Below are positions 1-33,871 of a stretch of DNA of 33,871 bases, piece after piece. The notes under the pieces are model-generated. The model saw only the letters and a list, made by a program, of their open reading frames with translations. It was not told the origin of the DNA and did not search any database. The position numbers and the translations under genes are program-made. The DNA is from Streptococcus ovis DSM 16829 (GTDB lineage: Bacteria > Bacillota > Bacilli > Lactobacillales > Streptococcaceae): positions 1 to 33,871 of the forward strand of contig NZ_KB904582.1 in the NCBI RefSeq assembly GCF_000380125.1, written 5' to 3'. The stretch's first letter is position 1. Every line of letters starts with the position of its first letter.

Positions 1-39
1 CTATCAGGCGAACTTTCTGTTAATCAAGCTACTAAATGA
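1..39 (+). CDS. hsdS: HsdS, type I restriction specificity subunit, last 12 codons only
   Basis: Reading from base 1 gives L-S-G-E-L-S-V-N-Q-A-T-K then TGA at 37-39. The same ending closes the inverted cassette at 1615-2246, where it follows L-L-P-K-L, a common end of HsdS proteins. The rest lies left of the window. This is probably the expressed specificity gene, with hsdM upstream, but neither can be seen. Confidence 0.75.
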   Translation, partial: LSGELSVNQATK

Positions 40-46
40 TGATTTA
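1..46 (+). repeat. Inverted repeat, copy A (hsdS 3' end plus recombination core)
   Basis: Bases 1-46 are the exact reverse complement of 1608-1653. The identity may continue left of base 1. The repeat covers the last hsdS codons, the stop, and a pseudo-palindromic core at 33-46 (TAAAT-GATG-ATTTA). Identity stops sharply after base 46, as expected for a crossover boundary. Confidence 0.9.
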
Positions 47-93: not shown

Positions 94-1080
94 ATGAAGG
101 ATAAAATAATCACACAGGTAGTTAATATTATGGCAGAACAGCTGACAATGGAGCAATTAGAGCAATTAGAGAGAGTGTTAGCGGCTAACTTGGCTAATGT
201 TGTAATGACGGAGAATGTTTCAAAGGTTGATGAAACATCTAACCCCAAATTATTGCACCTTTTTATCTCTGCCAAGAGGATTGAGGGGTGCAGTGAAAAG
301 TCATTAAAATACTATAAAATGGTTATTGAGAAAATGGTAGCCGAGTTGGATAAACCAATCAGGCAGATAAGCACCAGTGATTTAAGAACTTATCTTGCCA
401 ACTACCAAAAAGAACGCCAATCTAGCAAAGTAACGATTGATAACATGCGACGTATTTTTAGTAGTTTCTTTAGCTGGCTAGAAGATGAAGATTACATTTT
501 AAAAAGCCCAGTGAGACGTATTCACAAGATTAAGACGGATAAGGTTATCAAGGAAACGCTATCGGATGAAAGTCTAGAGCTGCTTAGAGATACTTGCGAC
601 AATATTCGTGACTTAGCCATGATTGATTTGCTTGCTTCAACTGGCATGCGTGTTGGAGAGCTGGTTCGACTTAATCGTGAGGACATCAACTTTCATGAGC
701 GTGAGTGTTTGGTGTTTGGTAAAGGAAATAGCGAGCGGATTGTTTATTTTGATGCAAGAACAAAGATACACTTAATCAATTATCTCGATAGTCGGAAAGA
801 TGACAGCTCTGCACTCTTTGTGTCATTAGCTTATCCCTACGACCGATTGATGATAGGTGGTGTTGAGACGAGATTGAGAGAGATTGGAAAACGGGCTAAC
901 CTTCAAAAAGTTCACCCACATAAATTCAGACGAACACTAGCAACAAGAGCAATAGATAAAGGCATGCCCATCGAGCAAGTTCAGCACTTACTAGGTCATG
1001 TCAAGATAGACACGACTATGCACTATGCCATGGTCAACCAAGCGAATGTCAAAAATTCGCATCGTAAATACATAGGATAA
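94..1080 (+). CDS. Tyrosine recombinase (XerC/CreX-like), probable hsdS invertase
   Basis: A 328-residue site-specific tyrosine recombinase. An N-terminal SAM-like core-binding domain (about residues 50-135) precedes the catalytic domain (about 155-320). The catalytic set is readable: R186 in S-T-G-M-R-V-G-E, K210 in F-G-K-G, H276 and R279 in H-K-F-R, H302 in L-L-G-H, and nucleophile Y311. Nothing essential is missing. ATG 94 follows AGGTAAGG; ATG 130 is a weaker alternative. It lies between two hsdS genes, as CreX/PsrA-type invertases do in the variable type I loci of pneumococcus and other Firmicutes, and hsdS' follows after 13 bp. Its likely substrates are the inverted repeats around it. 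It might instead be the integrase of the island, but it sits 8 kb from the att site. Confidence 0.88.
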   Translation: MKDKIITQVVNIMAEQLTMEQLEQLERVLAANLANVVMTENVSKVDETSNPKLLHLFISAKRIEGCSEKSLKYYKMVIEKMVAELDKPIRQISTSDLRTYLANYQKERQSSKVTIDNMRRIFSSFFSWLEDEDYILKSPVRRIHKIKTDKVIKETLSDESLELLRDTCDNIRDLAMIDLLASTGMRVGELVRLNREDINFHERECLVFGKGNSERIVYFDARTKIHLINYLDSRKDDSSALFVSLAYPYDRLMIGGVETRLREIGKRANLQKVHPHKFRRTLATRAIDKGMPIEQVQHLLGHVKIDTTMHYAMVNQANVKNSHRKYIG

Positions 1081-1093
1081 GGAGGAGTGACAA

Positions 1094-1630
1094 TTGAACG
1101 ATTGGAAATGGGTAAAGCTTTCAGAAATCATAGATTTTAATCCAAAAGAACGGTTGCTTAAGGGAAGCATTTCTAAAAAAATAGCAATGGAAAAAATAGA
1201 ACCATTCACTCGTGATATTTCTGAGTTTGAGAGATTAGAATTTAAAGGAGGTACAAAATTTAGAAATGGCGATACTTTAATAGCCCGTATTACGCCCAGT
1301 CTTGAAAATGGGAAAACAGCTAAGGTAAACTTACTGGATGAAGATGAAATAGGGTTTGGTTCAACAGAATTTATCGTAGCAAGAGCCAAAAAAGGTATTA
1401 GTGATGAAAATTTTGTTTATTATCTAATGCTTGACCCAAAGGTTAGAGAGGTTGCTATCAAATCAATGGTAGGAACTTCTGGAAGACAAAGAGTTCAGCT
1501 AGATGTTGTTAAGAATTATGAAATTCTATGTCCTCCATTAGAGGAGCAAATTCAAATTGGCAGAATTTTGAGTGTAATTGATGATAAAATTGAAAATAAT
1601 AAAAAGATAAATCATCATTTAGTAGCTTGA
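1094..1630 (+). CDS. hsdS: Half HsdS: first target-recognition domain plus central spacer
   Basis: A 178-residue protein with the start M-N-D-W-K-W-V-K-L typical of HsdS, one target-recognition domain (including T-L-I-A-R-I-T-P-S-L and G-F-G-S-T-E-F), then the helical spacer P-P-L-E-E-Q-I ... I-N-H-H-L. A normal HsdS has two such halves and 380-420 residues. The frame stops at TGA 1628-1630, inside the inverted repeat, giving L-V-A after I-N-H-H-L. The TTG start at 1094 has GGAGG eight bases upstream. Inverting 1605-2246 would replace the ending with L-E-Q-A-R-L-L-Y-K-N and a second domain. As it stands it is a silent half, or a short HsdS acting as a dimer; half-size HsdS variants of EcoR124I/EcoDXXI are known to work that way. 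Confidence 0.88.
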   Translation: MNDWKWVKLSEIIDFNPKERLLKGSISKKIAMEKIEPFTRDISEFERLEFKGGTKFRNGDTLIARITPSLENGKTAKVNLLDEDEIGFGSTEFIVARAKKGISDENFVYYLMLDPKVREVAIKSMVGTSGRQRVQLDVVKNYEILCPPLEEQIQIGRILSVIDDKIENNKKINHHLVA

Positions 1631-1653
1631 TTAACAGAAAGTTCGCCTGATAG
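1605..1653 (-). repeat. Inverted repeat, copy B (serves two possible inversions)
   Basis: Bases 1608-1653 mirror 1-46, and bases 1605-1621 mirror 2230-2246. The two relationships overlap on the core TAAAT-CATC-ATTTA (1608-1621), so this one site could recombine with either neighbour. Confidence 0.88.
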
Positions 1654-2246
1654 GAGTTTTGGCAAGAGGCAATCCCTTAACTCGGATAACTTTTGAATTT
1701 CAGCATTATTATTAAATATTAAATTAAATAATGGTTGCACTGTTTTATGGAAGTCAACTAAAAATTGATCTTTTATTGGAAGAATAACTTTGAAGCTATC
1801 GAAATCAGATTTTGAAATATTTATATAAACTGTTCCCGAACCAAGATTAGCATAGTAATCAAAAAGGTCTTCCAAAGCGAAAAATAAATATTCATCAAAG
1901 ATATTAGAAATTGGTTTTGCACTACCTGTTCCTCGACCAATAGCATATTCTTTAAATATTTTTGTTGTTAAACCAATAGTTGCTCTCACACCAAACACAT
2001 ATTCTCCAGGTCTAGCTATTTTTCTAGGATCAGATGTCCATTTTGAGGGTGAAATACTGTTTCTGAAGTCTGTAGCTCCATTTAATAACGGCAAACCAAT
2101 CTTGTCATCATTATAAGTCTCACCCTTAGGAGATTGTCCCATCGTAATTCTAGCAATATCTGAAAGATTTTGATATTTAGTGTCATTAGACGATATTAAA
2201 TTTTTATAAAGCAATCTAGCTTGCTCAAGTAAATGATGATTTATCT
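1615..2246 (-). pseudogene. hsdS: Silent 3' half of hsdS (second target-recognition domain), inverted cassette
   Basis: Read from 2246 leftward the frame starts inside the repeat (I-N-H-H-L-L-E-Q-A-R-L-L-Y-K-N), carries one target-recognition domain with a conserved beginning (I-T-M-G-Q-S-P-K-G), and ends with the conserved HsdS C-terminus and TGA at 1617-1615. It has no plausible start codon of its own: a TTG at 2214 opens 199 residues but has no ribosome site and falls inside the conserved linker. It is therefore a storage cassette that becomes expressed only when inverted next to 1094-1604 or exchanged into the upstream hsdS. It is intact, with no frameshift or internal stop, which argues for recent use. 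Confidence 0.85.
2230..2246 (+). repeat. Inverted repeat, copy C (linker end of the hsdS cassette)
   Basis: The exact 17-bp reverse complement of 1605-1621. It contains the third copy of the core, TAAAT-GATG-ATTTA, at 2230-2243. Only 34 bp separate it from the start codon of the next gene. Confidence 0.9.
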
Positions 2247-2280: not shown

Positions 2281-3108
2281 ATGAAAGTAAGTATTTTTGA
2301 TAAGGATATTTTAAAACAGTTTTCTAATATATGTGCTACGATTACTGCAATTTTATCGGCCGTATTGATTTTTCTTGATATTCCTAATAAATGGAGGCTT
2401 ACTTCTGGCGTTGTATACGTTGCATTTCTCTGTGTCATTTATATCTTTTTATGGAGAAGGGCAAATAGATTGAGACAAGTCAATATTAAAATAGGTGTTA
2501 CAACCCTTATTGTAAAATCAGGCGATATTTTTGAAGAAGATGGTCTGAAAGCGATTGCTTTTAATGAATATTTTGATACGACAGTTGATGATAAAATAAT
2601 TGCTAAAAAATCTTTGAACGGACAGTTTATTTTGAATCATATTGATGATGTTGCTAAATTAAATTCCGATATTGAAAGTGATGATGATTTAAAAAATAGT
2701 ATTGTAGAGAAGGAAGTAAAGCGAAAGCAAGGAAAAATGACTCAATATAAGTTAGGAAGTTCCATTTTGATAAATGATGAATATATTTTAACTGCTTTTA
2801 GCCGATTTAATAAAAATAATCAAGCAGAACTGACAATTCAGGAATATGTCAATTTTCTTTTAACGTTTTGGAATGAGATTAATAGATTGTATGCTCAAAG
2901 GTCAGTTACAGTTCCAGTATTTGGCTCGGGAATAACGAGATTTAAAAATGGTTTTGAAGATATTGATATTAATGAGCTACTGCGTATCATGATTTGGACT
3001 TTCAAAGTCAGCAAAATAAAGTTTGCGTACCCTGCAAAATTAACTATTATTGTGCATAATGATTTACTCAATCAGGTAAATCTATATAAATTAAAGGAGA
3101 ATGAATAA
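2281..3108 (+). CDS. thsA: Thoeris ThsA-like effector: two transmembrane helices plus macro domain (DUF6430 type)
   Basis: A 275-residue protein. Two hydrophobic helices lie at about residues 14-33 and 42-58, followed by a basic turn (W-R-R-A-N-R-L-R) and a soluble domain to the end. That domain has macro/DUF6430 hallmarks: G-D-I-F near 81-84, A-I-A-F-N-E-Y-F-D-T at 91-100, and a nucleotide-loop-like V-P-V-F-G-S-G at 211-217. In type II Thoeris, a TM-macro ThsA senses an ADP-ribose-derived signal made by a TIR partner (reported as histidine-ADP-ribose) and damages the membrane to abort phage infection. The TIR gene overlaps by one base, which supports the call. AAAGGA precedes ATG 2281. The gene is visibly AT-richer than hsdR. 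No promoter of its own is convincing. Family assignment is from memory of motifs. Confidence 0.72.
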   Translation: MKVSIFDKDILKQFSNICATITAILSAVLIFLDIPNKWRLTSGVVYVAFLCVIYIFLWRRANRLRQVNIKIGVTTLIVKSGDIFEEDGLKAIAFNEYFDTTVDDKIIAKKSLNGQFILNHIDDVAKLNSDIESDDDLKNSIVEKEVKRKQGKMTQYKLGSSILINDEYILTAFSRFNKNNQAELTIQEYVNFLLTFWNEINRLYAQRSVTVPVFGSGITRFKNGFEDIDINELLRIMIWTFKVSKIKFAYPAKLTIIVHNDLLNQVNLYKLKENE

Positions 3109-3608
3109 TGGCTTATCGGAATAAAACTTATGTTGCTTTTGATGGTGATAATGATATGCGTTACTATCAACTAATGAAAGCTTGGAAACAAAGTGATAAC
3201 ACAGCGTTTAATTTCTATGATGCTCATGACATTAATAGAGCTAGAGATTCTAGCCAGGAAGAATCCATTAAACGGCAACTTCGTGAAAGAATGACTAATA
3301 GCAAGGTTTTTATCTTATTAATTGGTGAGAACACCAAGTATTTAAGAAAGTTTGTAAAGTGGGAAATTGAGCTTGCCATTAAGAAAGGCTTACCAATTAT
3401 CTGTGTTAATCTAAATAAAAGCAAACAAAGGGATAACTATTGTCCATCAAGTTTAGATGGTCAACTGGCTATATTTATCCCTTTTGGAAATAAAATTATG
3501 CAGTATGCTCTTGAAAACTGGCCTCCTTCGCATGAACAATACCTTAAAAAAGGGGAAGCGGGTTCTTATTTTTATAAAGATACAGTATATAAACAATTAG
3601 GATATTAA
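3108..3608 (+). CDS. thsB: Thoeris ThsB-like TIR-domain protein (DUF1863)
   Basis: A 166-residue single-domain protein. It opens with K-T-Y-V-A-F-D-G-D-N-D (first strand and loop), then F-N-F-Y-D-A-H-D-I-N-R-A-R-D, a strand V-F-I-L-L-I-G-E-N-T near 67-76, and K-W-E-I-E-L-A-I at 84-91, where E86 or E88 would be the catalytic glutamate of a NAD-using TIR enzyme. I-I-C-V-N-L-N (97-103) forms the next strand. This order matches the ThsB family rather than STING- or CapP-type TIRs. ThsB detects phage and makes the nucleotide signal that triggers ThsA. The start ATG shares a base with the thsA stop (TAATG), so the two are translationally coupled, with GGAG just upstream. hsdR starts 27 bp later, so the pair is inserted in the restriction operon. 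Confidence 0.8.
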   Translation: MAYRNKTYVAFDGDNDMRYYQLMKAWKQSDNTAFNFYDAHDINRARDSSQEESIKRQLRERMTNSKVFILLIGENTKYLRKFVKWEIELAIKKGLPIICVNLNKSKQRDNYCPSSLDGQLAIFIPFGNKIMQYALENWPPSHEQYLKKGEAGSYFYKDTVYKQLGY

Positions 3609-3635
3609 ATTTAGAATTTATTGGGAGATATACTT

Positions 3636-6600
3636 ATGGGATTCACCGAAAACAACTACGAAAATGCAGTTATGGAGCTTTTTCGTGATAGTTTAGGGTA
3701 TTCATCTTTTTATGGTCCTGATGTCGGGAGGGACTACCGCGATAGTCTTTTTCGTGATGTGCTTTATGTAGCCTTGGAGAAACTAAATCCCTACTTACCG
3801 AGCTCTGCTATTGATTTTGCTATCAATAAGTTGCGTGATTTTGAGAGCGGCACACTGTTGCAGAAAAATAAAACTTTCATGGATTATCTCCAAAATGGGG
3901 TGCCTGTCACTTATGTTAAAAATGGCGAAGAGGTTTCGGACATTGCTTACCTCGTTGACTATGATAATACTGACGCTAATAGCTTTATTGTCGCTAATCA
4001 ATGGACAATCGAGGAACATAGTGAGAAACGACCAGACATTATTGTTTTTCTCAATGGTCTACCTATTGTGGTCTTTGAGTTGAAAAGCCCGTCACGTGAG
4101 GAAACGGAAGTTTCAGAAGCTTACAGTCAGCTCCGCAACTACATGAAGGAAATTCCATCTTTATTTTATTACAATGCCTTTTTGGTCATGAGTGACATGG
4201 CAACATCAAAGGCAGGGACTATCACAGCTGGTGAAGATCGTTTCATGGAGTGGAAGACGACTGATGGCAATTATGAGGATACACAGTTAGCAAACTTTAC
4301 AACCTTGATTGAAGGCATATTTGCCAAAGAACGTTTGTTGGATATCCTTAAAAACTTTATCTGTTTTTCAGGTGATGCCAAAATTTTAGCAGCTTATCAT
4401 CAGTATTTTGCCGTGAAAAAAGCAGTTCGTTCTACCTTAAAAGCTACGCAGACTGACGGGCGTGGTGGTGTCTTCTGGCATACGCAAGGCAGCGGCAAGT
4501 CCCTTTCGATGGTTTTCTATGCTCATTTGTTAGATAAGATATTACGGTCGCCAACAATCGTTGTCCTGACGGATAGAAATGATTTAGATAATCAGTTGTT
4601 TAAGCAATTTGACCGCTGTTCTCAATTTTTACGCCAAACACCAGTACAAGCGACAAGTCGTAAACATCTTAAAGAACTATTATCTGGTAGGCAAGCGAAC
4701 GGGATTATTTTCACAACCATGCAGAAGTTTGAAGAATCATCGGAAGCCTTGTCAGAACGACATAATATCGTCGTTATGGCTGACGAGGCACATCGTGGTC
4801 AGTATGGTTTAGAAGAAAAGATTGATCCCGCAACTGGTAAGTTTAAAATCGGGACAGCGCGCATCATCCGTGATAATCTCCCCAATGCGACCTATGTTGG
4901 TTTCACTGGAACACCTATTTCAAGTAAAGACAAATCAACAACAGAAGTATTTGGGGATTATATCGATATTTATGATATGACACAGGCTGTTGAGGACGGT
5001 GCAACTAGACCTGTCTACTATGAGAGTCGTGTCATACATCTCAACCTTGATGAAAAAATCTTGCAGGAGATTGATGCCGAATATGACGTGTTGGCAGAGC
5101 AATCCGAAGATTCTGCCATCAATAGGAGTAAAAGAGAACTTAGTCGACTGGATAGTGTTTTAGGTGCTGACCAGACCATTTCGGCGCTAGTGACAGATAT
5201 TATCACCCACTACGAAGATAATCGTGAAAATGAATTGACGGGGAAGGCGATGATTGTCGCATATTCGAGACCTATTGCGATGAAGATTTATCATAAGATA
5301 CTTGACTTGCGTCCTGATTGGGGTGATAAGGTTGGTGTTGTGATGACTTCTAGTAACAAAGATCCCGAAGAATGGCATGATCTTATAGGCAATAAAAAGC
5401 ATAAAGAAAAACTGGCTAAAAAATTTAAGGATGATAATAGTCCTTTCAAGATTGCTATCGTTGTTGATATGTGGCTAACTGGTTTTGATGTTCCAAGTCT
5501 TGCGACCATGTATGTCTATAAGCCGATGTCTGGTCATAATCTCATGCAGGCTATTGCGCGTGTTAACCGTGTCTATAAGGATAAAGAAGGTGGTTTGGTC
5601 GTTGATTATGTTGGTATCGCCTCAGCTTTAAAACAAGCTATGAACGATTATACCAATCGCGATAAAGGCAATTTTGGAGACACCAATATTGCTGCAACAG
5701 CTTACCCTAAATTTCAAGAAAAGCTTGAAGTTTGTCAAGATATGTTCTTTGGCTTTGATTACACCGCTTTTAAAGATGAAAATGCAACGAATCTGATGCG
5801 TGCTAATGTCATCACGGGTGGTGTCAACTTTATCACTAGTAGAGACAAGGATAAGGAGAGTTTTTTACGGGAGGCTACTCTCTTAAAGCAAGCCCTGCAG
5901 CTCTGTCGTTCCTTACTAACGCCAGAGGAACGCTATGAAGCAGCTTATTTTGAAGCTGTTCGAACAATATTAACGCGTATTGTTAATCCTCGAAAACCTC
6001 TATCGGTCAAAGAAATTAATGCTAAAATCAGTGAGTTGCTAAAATCAAGTATTAAGAGCGAAGATGTTATCAATCTATTTGCGGATTCTGAAAGAGATTT
6101 TTCATTGTTTGATCCTAAATTCTTGGACGAAATTGCAAAGATGAAAGAAAGGAACATTGCGGTTGAATTGTTGAAGAGGTTGATAAGAGAACAAGTTCAT
6201 ATTTATAAGCGAACAAATGTTGTTCAATCTGAGAAATTTTCAGAGATGCTTTCCAGAGCTATGAAAGCCTACTTAAATGGTATGTTGACAAATGAGGAAG
6301 TTATCGAAGAATTAAAACGCATGGCGTCGGAAATGCAAGCAGCAAGTGATGAAGGAAATGAACTAGGACTTAGTCCAGAGGAAATAGCTTTTTATGATGC
6401 GATTACCAAACCTGCTGCTGTTAAAGATTTTTATGATAATGACCAGTTAGTTGCCCTGACGCGGGAGCTGACAAACGAATTGCGGAGAAGTCGCACGATT
6501 GATTGGCAGAAAAAGGAATCTGCTCGCGCTAATATGCGACGGATCGTTAAGAGACTTTTGAGAAAATACAAGTATCCTCCAGAGGGGCTTGAAGATGCCT

Positions 6601-6644
6601 TGTCAACAGTTATCACACAATGTGAGTTATGGGCGGATAGTTAA
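3636..6644 (+). CDS. hsdR: HsdR, type I restriction endonuclease motor subunit
   Basis: A 1002-residue protein. The N-terminal nuclease domain has R-P-D-I-I-V-F and F-E-L-K (D134, E148, K150), a PD-(D/E)XK centre. The SF2 translocase follows: Walker A T-Q-G-S-G-K-S (K288), A-D-E-A-H at about 382-386, T-G-T-P, and Q-A-I-A-R-V-N-R as motif VI near 620-630. The C-terminal part is helical and would contact HsdM/HsdS. ATG 3636 is chosen over the in-frame TTG at 3621 because GGGAGA lies seven bases before it and the protein then begins M-G-F-T-E-N. The enzyme pulls DNA past the complex and cuts it when unmethylated. Intact and normal in length. Its partner HsdM is not in the window. Confidence 0.95.
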   Translation: MGFTENNYENAVMELFRDSLGYSSFYGPDVGRDYRDSLFRDVLYVALEKLNPYLPSSAIDFAINKLRDFESGTLLQKNKTFMDYLQNGVPVTYVKNGEEVSDIAYLVDYDNTDANSFIVANQWTIEEHSEKRPDIIVFLNGLPIVVFELKSPSREETEVSEAYSQLRNYMKEIPSLFYYNAFLVMSDMATSKAGTITAGEDRFMEWKTTDGNYEDTQLANFTTLIEGIFAKERLLDILKNFICFSGDAKILAAYHQYFAVKKAVRSTLKATQTDGRGGVFWHTQGSGKSLSMVFYAHLLDKILRSPTIVVLTDRNDLDNQLFKQFDRCSQFLRQTPVQATSRKHLKELLSGRQANGIIFTTMQKFEESSEALSERHNIVVMADEAHRGQYGLEEKIDPATGKFKIGTARIIRDNLPNATYVGFTGTPISSKDKSTTEVFGDYIDIYDMTQAVEDGATRPVYYESRVIHLNLDEKILQEIDAEYDVLAEQSEDSAINRSKRELSRLDSVLGADQTISALVTDIITHYEDNRENELTGKAMIVAYSRPIAMKIYHKILDLRPDWGDKVGVVMTSSNKDPEEWHDLIGNKKHKEKLAKKFKDDNSPFKIAIVVDMWLTGFDVPSLATMYVYKPMSGHNLMQAIARVNRVYKDKEGGLVVDYVGIASALKQAMNDYTNRDKGNFGDTNIAATAYPKFQEKLEVCQDMFFGFDYTAFKDENATNLMRANVITGGVNFITSRDKDKESFLREATLLKQALQLCRSLLTPEERYEAAYFEAVRTILTRIVNPRKPLSVKEINAKISELLKSSIKSEDVINLFADSERDFSLFDPKFLDEIAKMKERNIAVELLKRLIREQVHIYKRTNVVQSEKFSEMLSRAMKAYLNGMLTNEEVIEELKRMASEMQAASDEGNELGLSPEEIAFYDAITKPAAVKDFYDNDQLVALTRELTNELRRSRTIDWQKKESARANMRRIVKRLLRKYKYPPEGLEDALSTVITQCELWADS

Positions 6645-8097: not shown

Positions 8098-8110
8098 TTT
8101 ATCCTTTATG

Positions 8111-8186
8111 AAGTAGGATACAGTAGGATACAGTAGGATACAGTAGGATACAGTAGGATACAGTAGGATACAGTAGGATACAGTAG
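8111..8186 (+). repeat. 10-bp tandem repeat (CAGTAGGATA), about 7.6 units
   Basis: The array starts 14 bp after the preceding stop with one variant unit (AAGTAGGATA), then six perfect units at 8121-8180 and a partial one. The unit is one DNA helical turn and not a multiple of three, so stops occur in every frame and it is not coding. It sits between the end of an operon and its terminator. Repeat number could vary by slippage; no function is evident. Confidence 0.95.
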
Positions 8187-8191
8187 AACAT

Positions 8192-8230
8192 AAAAAGTGG
8201 TCTTCAACGAAAGGTTGATAACCACTTTTT
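8192..8230. terminator. Bidirectional Rho-independent terminator
   Basis: A 17-bp stem with two mismatches (AAAAAGTGGT...TCAAC against GTTGA...ACCACTTTTT) around the loop GAAAG, with A and T runs at the two ends. It lies between the convergent AlbA_2 gene and the toxin gene and can serve both. Confidence 0.9.
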
Positions 8231-8232
8231 AA

Positions 8233-8640
8233 TTATAATTTTGTTATGTTTCCATCTTGCTTGAGGAAGTGAATAATTGTTTTCTTTAAATCTTCAAAAT
8301 CTCCTTGAAAGGTAGCAATTTCAACTGTCTTTTCAAGTCCATCCTGTAAGGAAAGATTGGATTGGTAACCATTCATTGCTAGAAATATATGCAAGGCAAG
8401 AACAGCAGTTCGTTTATTAGCATTATAAAAAGGATGTTTTTTAATCAAATTTATCCAGATAATAGCAGCTTTACTGTAGATATCTGGATAGAGAACTTTT
8501 CCGAAAATCTCTTGTTTAGGCTGTTCAACAATCATTTGAAGACTGTTTGGATCAGCAATGCCAACAGGTTCATTAGGAGAATATTTACCAATAACCATGA
8601 CATTGATTTTGATAATATCTTCAGCAATTAGGTATCTCAT
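8233..8640 (-). CDS. doc: Doc/Fic-family toxin (death-on-curing type)
   Basis: A 135-residue Fic-fold protein with the core H-P-F-Y-N-A-N-K-R-T-A at residues 69-79. As in Doc, asparagine-alanine replaces the glycine of classical Fic AMP-transferases (HPFxxGNGR), which matches Doc kinases that phosphorylate and inactivate elongation factor EF-Tu. Length fits the Doc family (about 125-135). ATG at 8640-8638 overlaps the antitoxin stop by four bases, so toxin synthesis depends on antitoxin translation. The gene ends at the shared terminator. It may stabilise the island or act in phage defence. Activity is inferred from the motif alone. Confidence 0.88.
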   Translation of the reverse strand: MRYLIAEDIIKINVMVIGKYSPNEPVGIADPNSLQMIVEQPKQEIFGKVLYPDIYSKAAIIWINLIKKHPFYNANKRTAVLALHIFLAMNGYQSNLSLQDGLEKTVEIATFQGDFEDLKKTIIHFLKQDGNITKL

Positions 8641-8858
8641 CTATCCACCAATTCTTTCAAAAGCTCATCGTATTGGTTCATGGCTTTTTCTAGTTCCTTA
8701 TCAAAATCAAATTTTGGCTCAGCTTTACGAATGATGACGTTATTTCCTGAAGTGACGAATTCAATTTCTTCTCCAATTTCTGCTCCAAGAGTTTCTTTAA
8801 TTTTATTGGGAATTGTAATGACAGTACTATTTCCTGTTTTTCTCAAGATAACATTCAT
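8637..8858 (-). CDS. AbrB/MazE-type antitoxin partner of Doc
   Basis: A 73-residue protein. The first 45 residues have the swapped-hairpin AbrB pattern (V-I-L-R-K-T-G-N-S, V-I-T-I-P, I-G-E-E-I-E-F), which binds DNA. The rest is an acidic helical tail (F-D-F-D-K-E-L-E-K) likely to wrap and block the toxin. ATG 8858 is chosen because GGAGG lies seven bases before it and upstream codons lack AbrB similarity. A promoter and short palindrome stand just upstream, suggesting autorepression. Doc is classically paired with Phd; an AbrB-type partner is less usual. Confidence 0.85.
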   Translation of the reverse strand: MNVILRKTGNSTVITIPNKIKETLGAEIGEEIEFVTSGNNVIIRKAEPKFDFDKELEKAMNQYDELLKELVDR

Positions 8859-8874
8859 GGTTCTACCTCCGTTT

Positions 8875-8911
8875 GTATATACATTATAAAATGAACTTAC
8901 AAAAAAGTAAA
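8875..8911 (-). promoter_or_regulatory. Promoter of the antitoxin-toxin operon with a start-site palindrome
   Basis: On the minus strand TTTACT (8911-8906), a 17-bp spacer and TATAAT (8888-8883). The 8-bp palindrome GTATATAC (8875-8882) sits at the expected transcription start, a plausible operator for the AbrB-type protein. Confidence 0.7.
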
Positions 8912-8959
8912 GTGAATACACATCGTTTCTCAATTACATAAGCTCCGAAAACGAGTTTT

Positions 8960-33645: not shown

Positions 33646-33871
33646 ATGGAATTTAAGACAATCTATTCAAAGGTAAGCGGGATAGTGGAGAAAGCCCGGA
33701 AGGAATACTACGTGAAGTCATGGGAGCACGAGGATTGGGAACAAGAAGGGATGCTGGTATTGTATGAATTACTATCAAGCGATGCAAGCATCACGGAAGA
33801 CATGAGTCGCTTATATGTGTACTATAAGGTTAAGTTCCGGAATCACGTAAAAGACAAGATACGGCGCCAAG
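33646..33871 (+). CDS. comX: ComX (SigX), competence sigma factor, 5' part only
   Basis: The first 75 codons are present; the gene runs off the end of the window. It reads M-E-F-K-T-I-Y-S-K-V... then W-E-H-E-D-W-E-Q-E-G-M-L-V-L-Y-E-L-L, the conserved core-binding segment of streptococcal ComX, and V-Y-Y-K-V-K-F-R-N-H-V-K-D. AAGGAG lies seven bases before ATG 33646. ComX directs RNA polymerase to CIN-box promoters of DNA uptake genes. It follows the pheromone importer and stands behind a ComR box; MecA, encoded at 17853, targets it for degradation in related species. No frameshift so far. Confidence 0.93.
   Translation, partial: MEFKTIYSKVSGIVEKARKEYYVKSWEHEDWEQEGMLVLYELLSSDASITEDMSRLYVYYKVKFRNHVKDKIRRQ

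Follow-up and report, generated by a model that had tools for sequence, protein, structure and literature searches.

The window analysed here is a stretch of 33,871 nucleotides from Streptococcus ovis DSM 16829 (contig NZ_KB904582.1, positions 1 to 33,871) that opens within a type I restriction-modification locus. The locus has the following features:

1–39, forward strand: last 13 codons of hsdS1, stop included, which form the forward-oriented tail of cassette X1; reads LSGELSVNQATK followed by a stop and has a copy in a 46-bp inverted repeat
33–46, reverse strand: site e1, third copy in the window of a 14-bp core, reading TAAATGATGATTTA
94–1080, forward strand: tyrosine recombinase, the xerD of SsuCC20p (PF00589, E 6.4e-36; NF040815 above the cut-off)
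1094–1630, forward strand: 5′ half of hsdS2, TRD3-type, 178 amino acids, with a TTG start after AAGGAGGAG (PF01420; open reading frame; start region)
1605–1621, forward strand: site m2, left 17-bp arm with the core at 1608–1621 (inverted-repeat and shuffle searches)
1622–2229, reverse strand: cassette X2, an inverted 3′ half of hsdS (PF01420; match to S. agalactiae ATCC 13813)
2230–2246, reverse strand: site e2, right 17-bp arm with the core at 2230–2243 (inverted-repeat and shuffle searches)
2281–3108, forward strand: thsA, predicted Macro-domain Thoeris protein whose N-terminus looks hydrophobic by eye (PF20016, E 7.2e-60; PADLOC ThsA, E 3.2e-115)
3108–3608, forward strand: thsB, predicted TIR-like Thoeris protein (PF08937, E 2.8e-23; PADLOC ThsB, E 3.5e-84)
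3621–6644, forward strand: hsdR (TIGR00348, E 2.8e-182; PADLOC REase_I)

The two 17-bp arms are 100% complementary and are separated by 608 bp that hold a backward 3′ half of hsdS, as a sequence-only reading of this DNA had described. Both hsdS halves matched the Methylase_S family PF01420 (E 1.1e-16 and 1.6e-7). With up to three mismatches allowed, the 17-mer matched the window three times, two of the matches being exact, compared to a mean of 0.30 matches in 100 shuffled sequences, one of which reached three. A chance repeat was ruled out by this comparison together with the four intact cores in the locus. The 5′ half of hsdS2 ends in NHHLVA and a stop a few codons past the site because the tail of the inverted cassette supplies the stop codon. 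Frame arithmetic showed that the turned cassette would instead give 172 codons before the site and 208 after it, which reproduces the 380-codon frame proposed in the earlier reading, and the linker INHHLLEQAR that it had specified was read directly from the sequence.

Three elements were absent from that reading: the third core at 33–46, a 46-bp perfect inverted repeat between 1–46 and 1608–1653 with the tail of the main hsdS (hsdS1) as its left arm, and a fourth core beyond the window at C21:33903–33916 which closes the contig that carries hsdM and hsdS1. The 14-bp core TAAATCATCATTTA occurs four times in the genome, in every case within the hsdS locus (positions 33, 1608 and 2230 of the window and C21:33903), and the four sites correspond to two per cassette. 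One edge of X1, the 3′ cassette of hsdS1, coincides with the start of the window contig and the other with the end of the hsdM contig. This cassette lies in an assembly gap, searches of the strain's own genome having recovered its tail only, and three TRDs are present in the assembly (TRD1, TRD3 and X2). The hsdM gene is on the same scaffold as the window but separated from it by a 16-N gap, with the scaffold order setting the hsdM contig behind the comX end of the window. A 34-kb inversion was not accepted on the basis of this order, which was judged to be a scaffolding guess given the repeated comX end and the 16-N join. The comX-like gene, named by eye, spans 33646–33871 and its end is repeated with 100% identity at G000 C4:1–382 and C5:1–280; as it recurs at the ends of two other contigs, the end of the window contig is a repeat. 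The hsdM contig probably joins the left end of the window, and the forward tail at 1–39 points to a state in which hsdS1 would be complete and hsdS2 truncated.

The locus is orthologous to SsuCC20p, a phase-variable type I system of Streptococcus suis, and the feature therefore is already known. The 17-nt repeat AGATAAATCATCATTTA was printed in 2016 (PMC5198162), and SsuCC20p was described in 2023 as having 14-bp inverted repeats, four TRDs of which two make up a complete hsdS, the recombinase XerD and two hypothetical proteins (PMC10790761). The window has the same gene set and the same arrangement of two fixed 5′ and two movable 3′ halves, and its repeats match the published 17-nt and 14-nt sequences exactly. 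The "two identical sets of 14-bp inverted repeats" of the published description are found in the window genome, as are two further locus genes, here thsA and thsB between hsdS2 and hsdR. In the published selection, loci were assigned to SsuCC20p when hsdM, xerD and hsdR were at least 90% identical to the S. suis locus and on one contig (PMC10790761). Against S. suis 10581, named in the same paper as holding the locus without some parts, the three are 99%, 97% and 97% identical, respectively, and so pass the identity threshold, with hsdM across the N gap and therefore not on one contig. S. agalactiae ATCC 13813 also was compared: the recombinases differ at one of 328 residues, and X2 is 99.0% identical across 598 bp to an inverted cassette of that strain.

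According to the S. suis report, SsuCC20p switches and deletion of xerD freezes the locus (PMC10790761). When the complete hsdS is the one behind xerD, it is transcribed and contributes to methylation, and allele E is transcribed and considered to methylate (PMC10790761). Complete hsdS2 accompanies truncated hsdS1, and loci with two complete or only truncated hsdS genes were absent from the full-locus assemblies and from the reads and PCR products of strain 861160, in which there were two methylation profiles only, both bipartite and non-palindromic (PMC10790761). One S. agalactiae strain lacks a functional hsdS and five others have three TRDs, an inverted xerD and lost repeats (PMC10790761). 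The authors leave the precise mechanism open and raise coordinated double recombination and intramolecular recombination as possibilities (PMC10790761). In S. suis, switching of this type alters both methylation and transcription. In the present analysis the sites, the gene halves, the conserved architecture and the states of relatives were observed directly, whereas recombinase dependence, expression and methylation are drawn from the S. suis work.

The window differs from the published description in that the pair of genes before hsdR can be named. By Pfam and PADLOC matches these are a predicted Thoeris pair, with ThsA (Macro) adjoining ThsB (TIR), and the two hypothetical proteins of the SsuCC20p paper probably are the same two proteins. 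S. suis 10581, which is reported without the two genes, has a 30-bp gap at that place. Thoeris in the SsuCC20p locus was not found in the open-licence literature: the word is absent from the main text of the SsuCC20p paper (PMC10790761), and one study that counts Thoeris in S. suis does not mention CC20 or phase-variable in the text available. The Thoeris pair of window 2281–3608 also occurs in loci L041, L042, L121, L122, L123 and L159 and in the viral contig L166. In eight relatives with other genes at this place, Pfam assigned an FRG domain in two, a YhcG nuclease in one, a marginal DUF3800 in one and no family in four. Lactococcal plasmids have an annotated DUF3800 gene before hsdR, and many loci have an empty space of less than 150 bp there.

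Loci that are near-identical outside the cassettes reveal how the states differ. The Streptococcus assembly G059 contains the locus twice, on contigs of 213 kb and 7 kb. The M segment (1561 bp) and 600 bp of the right flank are identical between the two copies, as are 1545 bp on the left (100% by BLAST), and X1 (659 bp) and X2 (638 bp) are exchanged with their orientation kept. Farther to the right, 11 gaps open in the small contig over 2729 aligned bases, as in a thin long-read contig. The small contig probably represents another form present in the same culture, but might be a genuine second copy. Among four lactococcal plasmids, M shows 100% identity, as do 1500 bp on either side, and the cassettes occur as (+a,−b) in two plasmids, (+b,−a) in one and (−a,+a) in one. 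The last of these is pJM1A of Lactococcus cremoris (L196), which has the same cassette in both places in opposite orientation (100% over 635 bp compared to L194). In Lachnospiraceae GAM79 (L100), an identical cassette occupies both places in the same orientation. These two duplications suggest crossover between replicons in different states. A lone flip was absent from the comparisons within the G059 pair and among the four plasmids. The shuffling of domains between genes, regarded as classical and set aside in the sequence-only reading, is what is seen between near-identical loci.

A site search was run on 126 loci, 119 with a recombinase match. Both repeat pairs were found in 53 of the latter, the left pair only in 13, the right pair only in 10 and neither in 43, such that 66 of the 119 were not scorable for both pairs. 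Pairs were defined as exact inverted words of at least 12 bases holding TAAA[CT]N5TTTA, and agreement between left and right was not imposed. Five loci whose M segment was identical to that of another (L087, L091, L122, L160 and L170) were dropped, which reduced the 53 to 48. The recombinase runs in the direction of hsdM in 39 of these, is inverted in eight and is undetermined in one (L059). Cassette orientation was called by script, with a second rule for cases left unclear by the first and a looser rule for L053, L055, L059 and L120. The window, L041, L042/L158, L044 and L052 fall outside the 48, a pair being incomplete in each. In the draft of S. agalactiae ATCC 13813 (L041, 7740–12394) there are N runs at or near all four sites, which a mixed culture could cause, and this locus was left unscored. 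G198 (L159) also was left unscored as an apparent assembly chimera: both of its outer cassette ends are tails, and it has internal N and no listed recombinase match.

Among the 39 loci with the recombinase in normal direction, exactly one hsdS is complete in 35, two are complete in four (L047, L076, L100 and L176) and there is no locus with none. The complete gene is hsdS1 in 22 cases, hsdS2 in 13 and both in four. None of 100,000 label shuffles attained 35 of 39, a comparison in which the loci are not independent draws as they are related and draft assemblies vary. In a follow-up set of 18 loci fetched after the rule had been stated (L188–L205), exactly one hsdS was complete in eight of nine scored loci (L188, L193, L194, L195, L196, L201, L202, L203 and L205). 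L201 and L203 were scored from record annotation with sites at zero to one mismatch, and L188, L193 and L205 were rechecked. The remainder were left out because they were identical to L194 (L197), by length apparently on the same contig as L105 (L189), rearranged (L200), of the inverted type (L204) or had no clear pairs (L190, L191, L192, L198 and L199). In L202, the complete plasmid pBNS11-360kb of Ligilactobacillus salivarius, both hsdS genes are truncated and the cassettes inverted, which is the sole state with no complete gene among the scored loci. No paper describing the rule of exactly one complete hsdS beyond S. suis was found in the open-licence literature.

The left-pair and right-pair 14-mers are the same in 48 of 48 loci, which span several phyla, albeit with one arm of the right pair off by one or two bases in five. 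There are 12 variants of the 14-mer among these loci, and two different loci share one with a chance of 0.14. This agreement within loci would fit recombination between left and right sites. In all eight loci with an inverted recombinase, the right cassette lies between two facing 5′ halves, and the geometry thus dictates that exactly one hsdS is complete in each. Cassette orientations are equal in three of these eight compared to four of 39 normal loci (Fisher p 0.08); this difference could point to lone flips, with selection rather than mechanism keeping one gene complete, but does not settle the matter. The hsdM and hsdR genes are on the same side in five of the eight (L071, L075, L081, L095 and L101), in which segment inversion may be a fixed plan. 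In L158 the recombinase segment is turned relative to thsA and hsdR. In S. porci contig C4 (L157:6582–8762, reverse strand), a 726-residue frame fuses an hsdS cassette, exactly at the recombination site, to a repeat protein that looks secreted; this fusion reflects either stray recombination with a chromosomal place or misassembly.

Taken as a whole, the locus very probably is a device in which two 3′ cassettes are exchanged between two hsdS genes by the recombinase acting at four sites, thereby changing methylation specificity. X1 and X2 would follow two fixed 5′ halves and each would lie between inverted copies of a common 14-bp site, and the complete HsdS would combine TRD1 or TRD3 with either cassette, so that methylation specificity changes. 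As the order of site orientations is +, −, +, −, the proposed reactions pair two + sites and then two − sites or, alternatively, sites of opposite sign. Excision by m1 × m2 (m1 being the remaining site of the four) followed by reinsertion through e1 × e2 would exchange the cassettes without turning them, the change seen in G059. Inversion by m1 × e2 and e1 × m2, first of the whole stretch and then of the middle, would swap them with both turned, as between pJM2A and pUCCL627F. Either route would leave exactly one complete hsdS. Duplicated cassettes, of which pJM1A (−a,+a) and L100 (+a,+a) are examples, could arise by crossover of replicons in different states. The main transitions probably are exchanges between the two cassettes by these routes, and the window strain itself is likely to be capable of switching. 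The scheme supplies an explicit exchange route for the point that the S. suis paper leaves open, namely how the recombinase moves domains such that two or zero complete hsdS genes are not seen there. Both kinds of exchange are found in near-identical DNA, and the rule of exactly one complete gene extends, with exceptions, well beyond streptococci.

The sequence-only reading had proposed an on/off flip of a secondary hsdS. This is supported in part: the cassette is invertible by the recombinase and hsdS2 can be completed and used, as published for SsuCC20p (PMC10790761); the stand-alone character of the flip is not supported. An independent m2 × e2 inversion in place, switching hsdS2 between on and off with hsdS1 permanently on, is permitted by the geometry, with perfect 17-bp arms 608 bp apart and a 380-codon frame, and the four loci of 39 with two complete genes, the empty state of L202 and the equal orientations in three of eight inverted-segment loci are compatible with it. 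A lone flip from the probable state of the window would lead to two complete hsdS genes, the very state that, along with truncated-only loci, is missing from full-locus S. suis assemblies and from the reads and PCR of strain 861160 (PMC10790761). Exactly one gene is complete in 35 of 39 loci and none lacks a complete gene, what separates near-identical loci is an exchange or a duplication of cassettes, and the identical cassettes of L100 fit crossover between two states better. As the main mode of switching, independent flipping consequently is unlikely. An occasional lone flip is possible given the two-complete loci, L202 and the S. agalactiae strain without functional hsdS.

HsdS proteins of half the usual size can function as dimers, and the 5′ half of hsdS2 retains an intact TRD and the ribosome-binding-like AAGGAGGAG. 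A truncated HsdS consisting of one TRD and the linker hence might act as a self-pair on a palindromic target, giving two specificities per state. With the two profiles of S. suis 861160 both bipartite and non-palindromic (PMC10790761), this proposal is the most improbable of those considered. Scarcely more credible is the notion that the repeat is an old scar at a locus where the recombinase is inactive. X2 has a single orientation in this one assembly, as a frozen remnant would, but the recombinase is full length and nearly invariant relative to ATCC 13813, all four cores are intact, and the assembly breaks that flank X1 and the N runs in ATCC 13813 could be explained by mixed cultures.

Cassette exchange between two hsdS genes, the preferred reading, may have a wider setting. 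Tentatively, and with slightly more doubt than conviction, the loci can be viewed as one family of two-cassette hsdS exchangers that spans phyla and is united by a shared form of site, by a rule of exactly one complete gene that derives from site pairing and by a slot before hsdR. The proposed family would range across streptococci, lactococcal and enterococcal plasmids, Clostridia, Spirochaetes, Synergistetes, Bacteroidetes and a gammaproteobacterium. Its site would be TAAAY-N5-TTTA, in which the inner bases drift between loci but agree on either side of the recombinase. The exactly-one rule would stem from site pairing in cassette exchange and not from selection alone, and the slot before hsdR would take other genes, some with roles in defence such as Thoeris. 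A phylum scan for further loci was positive in six of 398 genomes, the window's own included.

Intragenic invertons are single in-place flips of a coding segment between short inverted repeats. The window segment differs from these in belonging to a pair that trades places between two genes. The SpnD39III (ivr) system of Streptococcus pneumoniae, with the recombinase CreX/PsrA, resembles the window as a type I system with inverted hsdS cassettes and a locus-encoded tyrosine recombinase, but it has repeats of several lengths, and expression reportedly is confined to the hsdS that follows hsdM. The ivr repeats are given as 15, 85 and 333 bp (PMC10790761) or as 15, 85 and 33 bp (PMC7394358). In the pneumococcal SpnIV (tvr) locus, excision and reinsertion with circles have been documented (PMC6265443), a feature shared with the route suggested here for the orientation-keeping swap. 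The tvr locus has two types of direct repeat and TvrA/TvrT, whereas in SsuCC20p-type loci a single site occurs four times, its orientation alternating. A REBASE survey of inverting type I systems used a minimum repeat of 20 bp and states that shorter ones are missed (PMC7394358). As exact repeats in SsuCC20p-type loci mostly are 14–20 bp, with some longer, most of these loci would escape that survey.

Within the genus, the recombinase was found in 24 of 284 Streptococcus genomes at E 1e-20 with identities of 60–100%. The 14-mer core is present in 30 of the 284, most single matches being in genomes without the recombinase; these were taken as chance, and the pattern read backward also gave a few matches. 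Twelve genus loci with a 59–64% identical recombinase (L126–L137) were scanned and had no pair of the SsuCC20p site type; judged by recombinase identity, they probably are of the pneumococcal type. Adjoining the restriction locus in the window are a Fic/DOC-family gene and a MazE-like antitoxin gene on the reverse strand (8233–8933), and a tandem repeat of a 10-bp unit (AGTAGGATAC) occupies 8102–8196 just downstream of a Schlafen/AlbA_2 gene.
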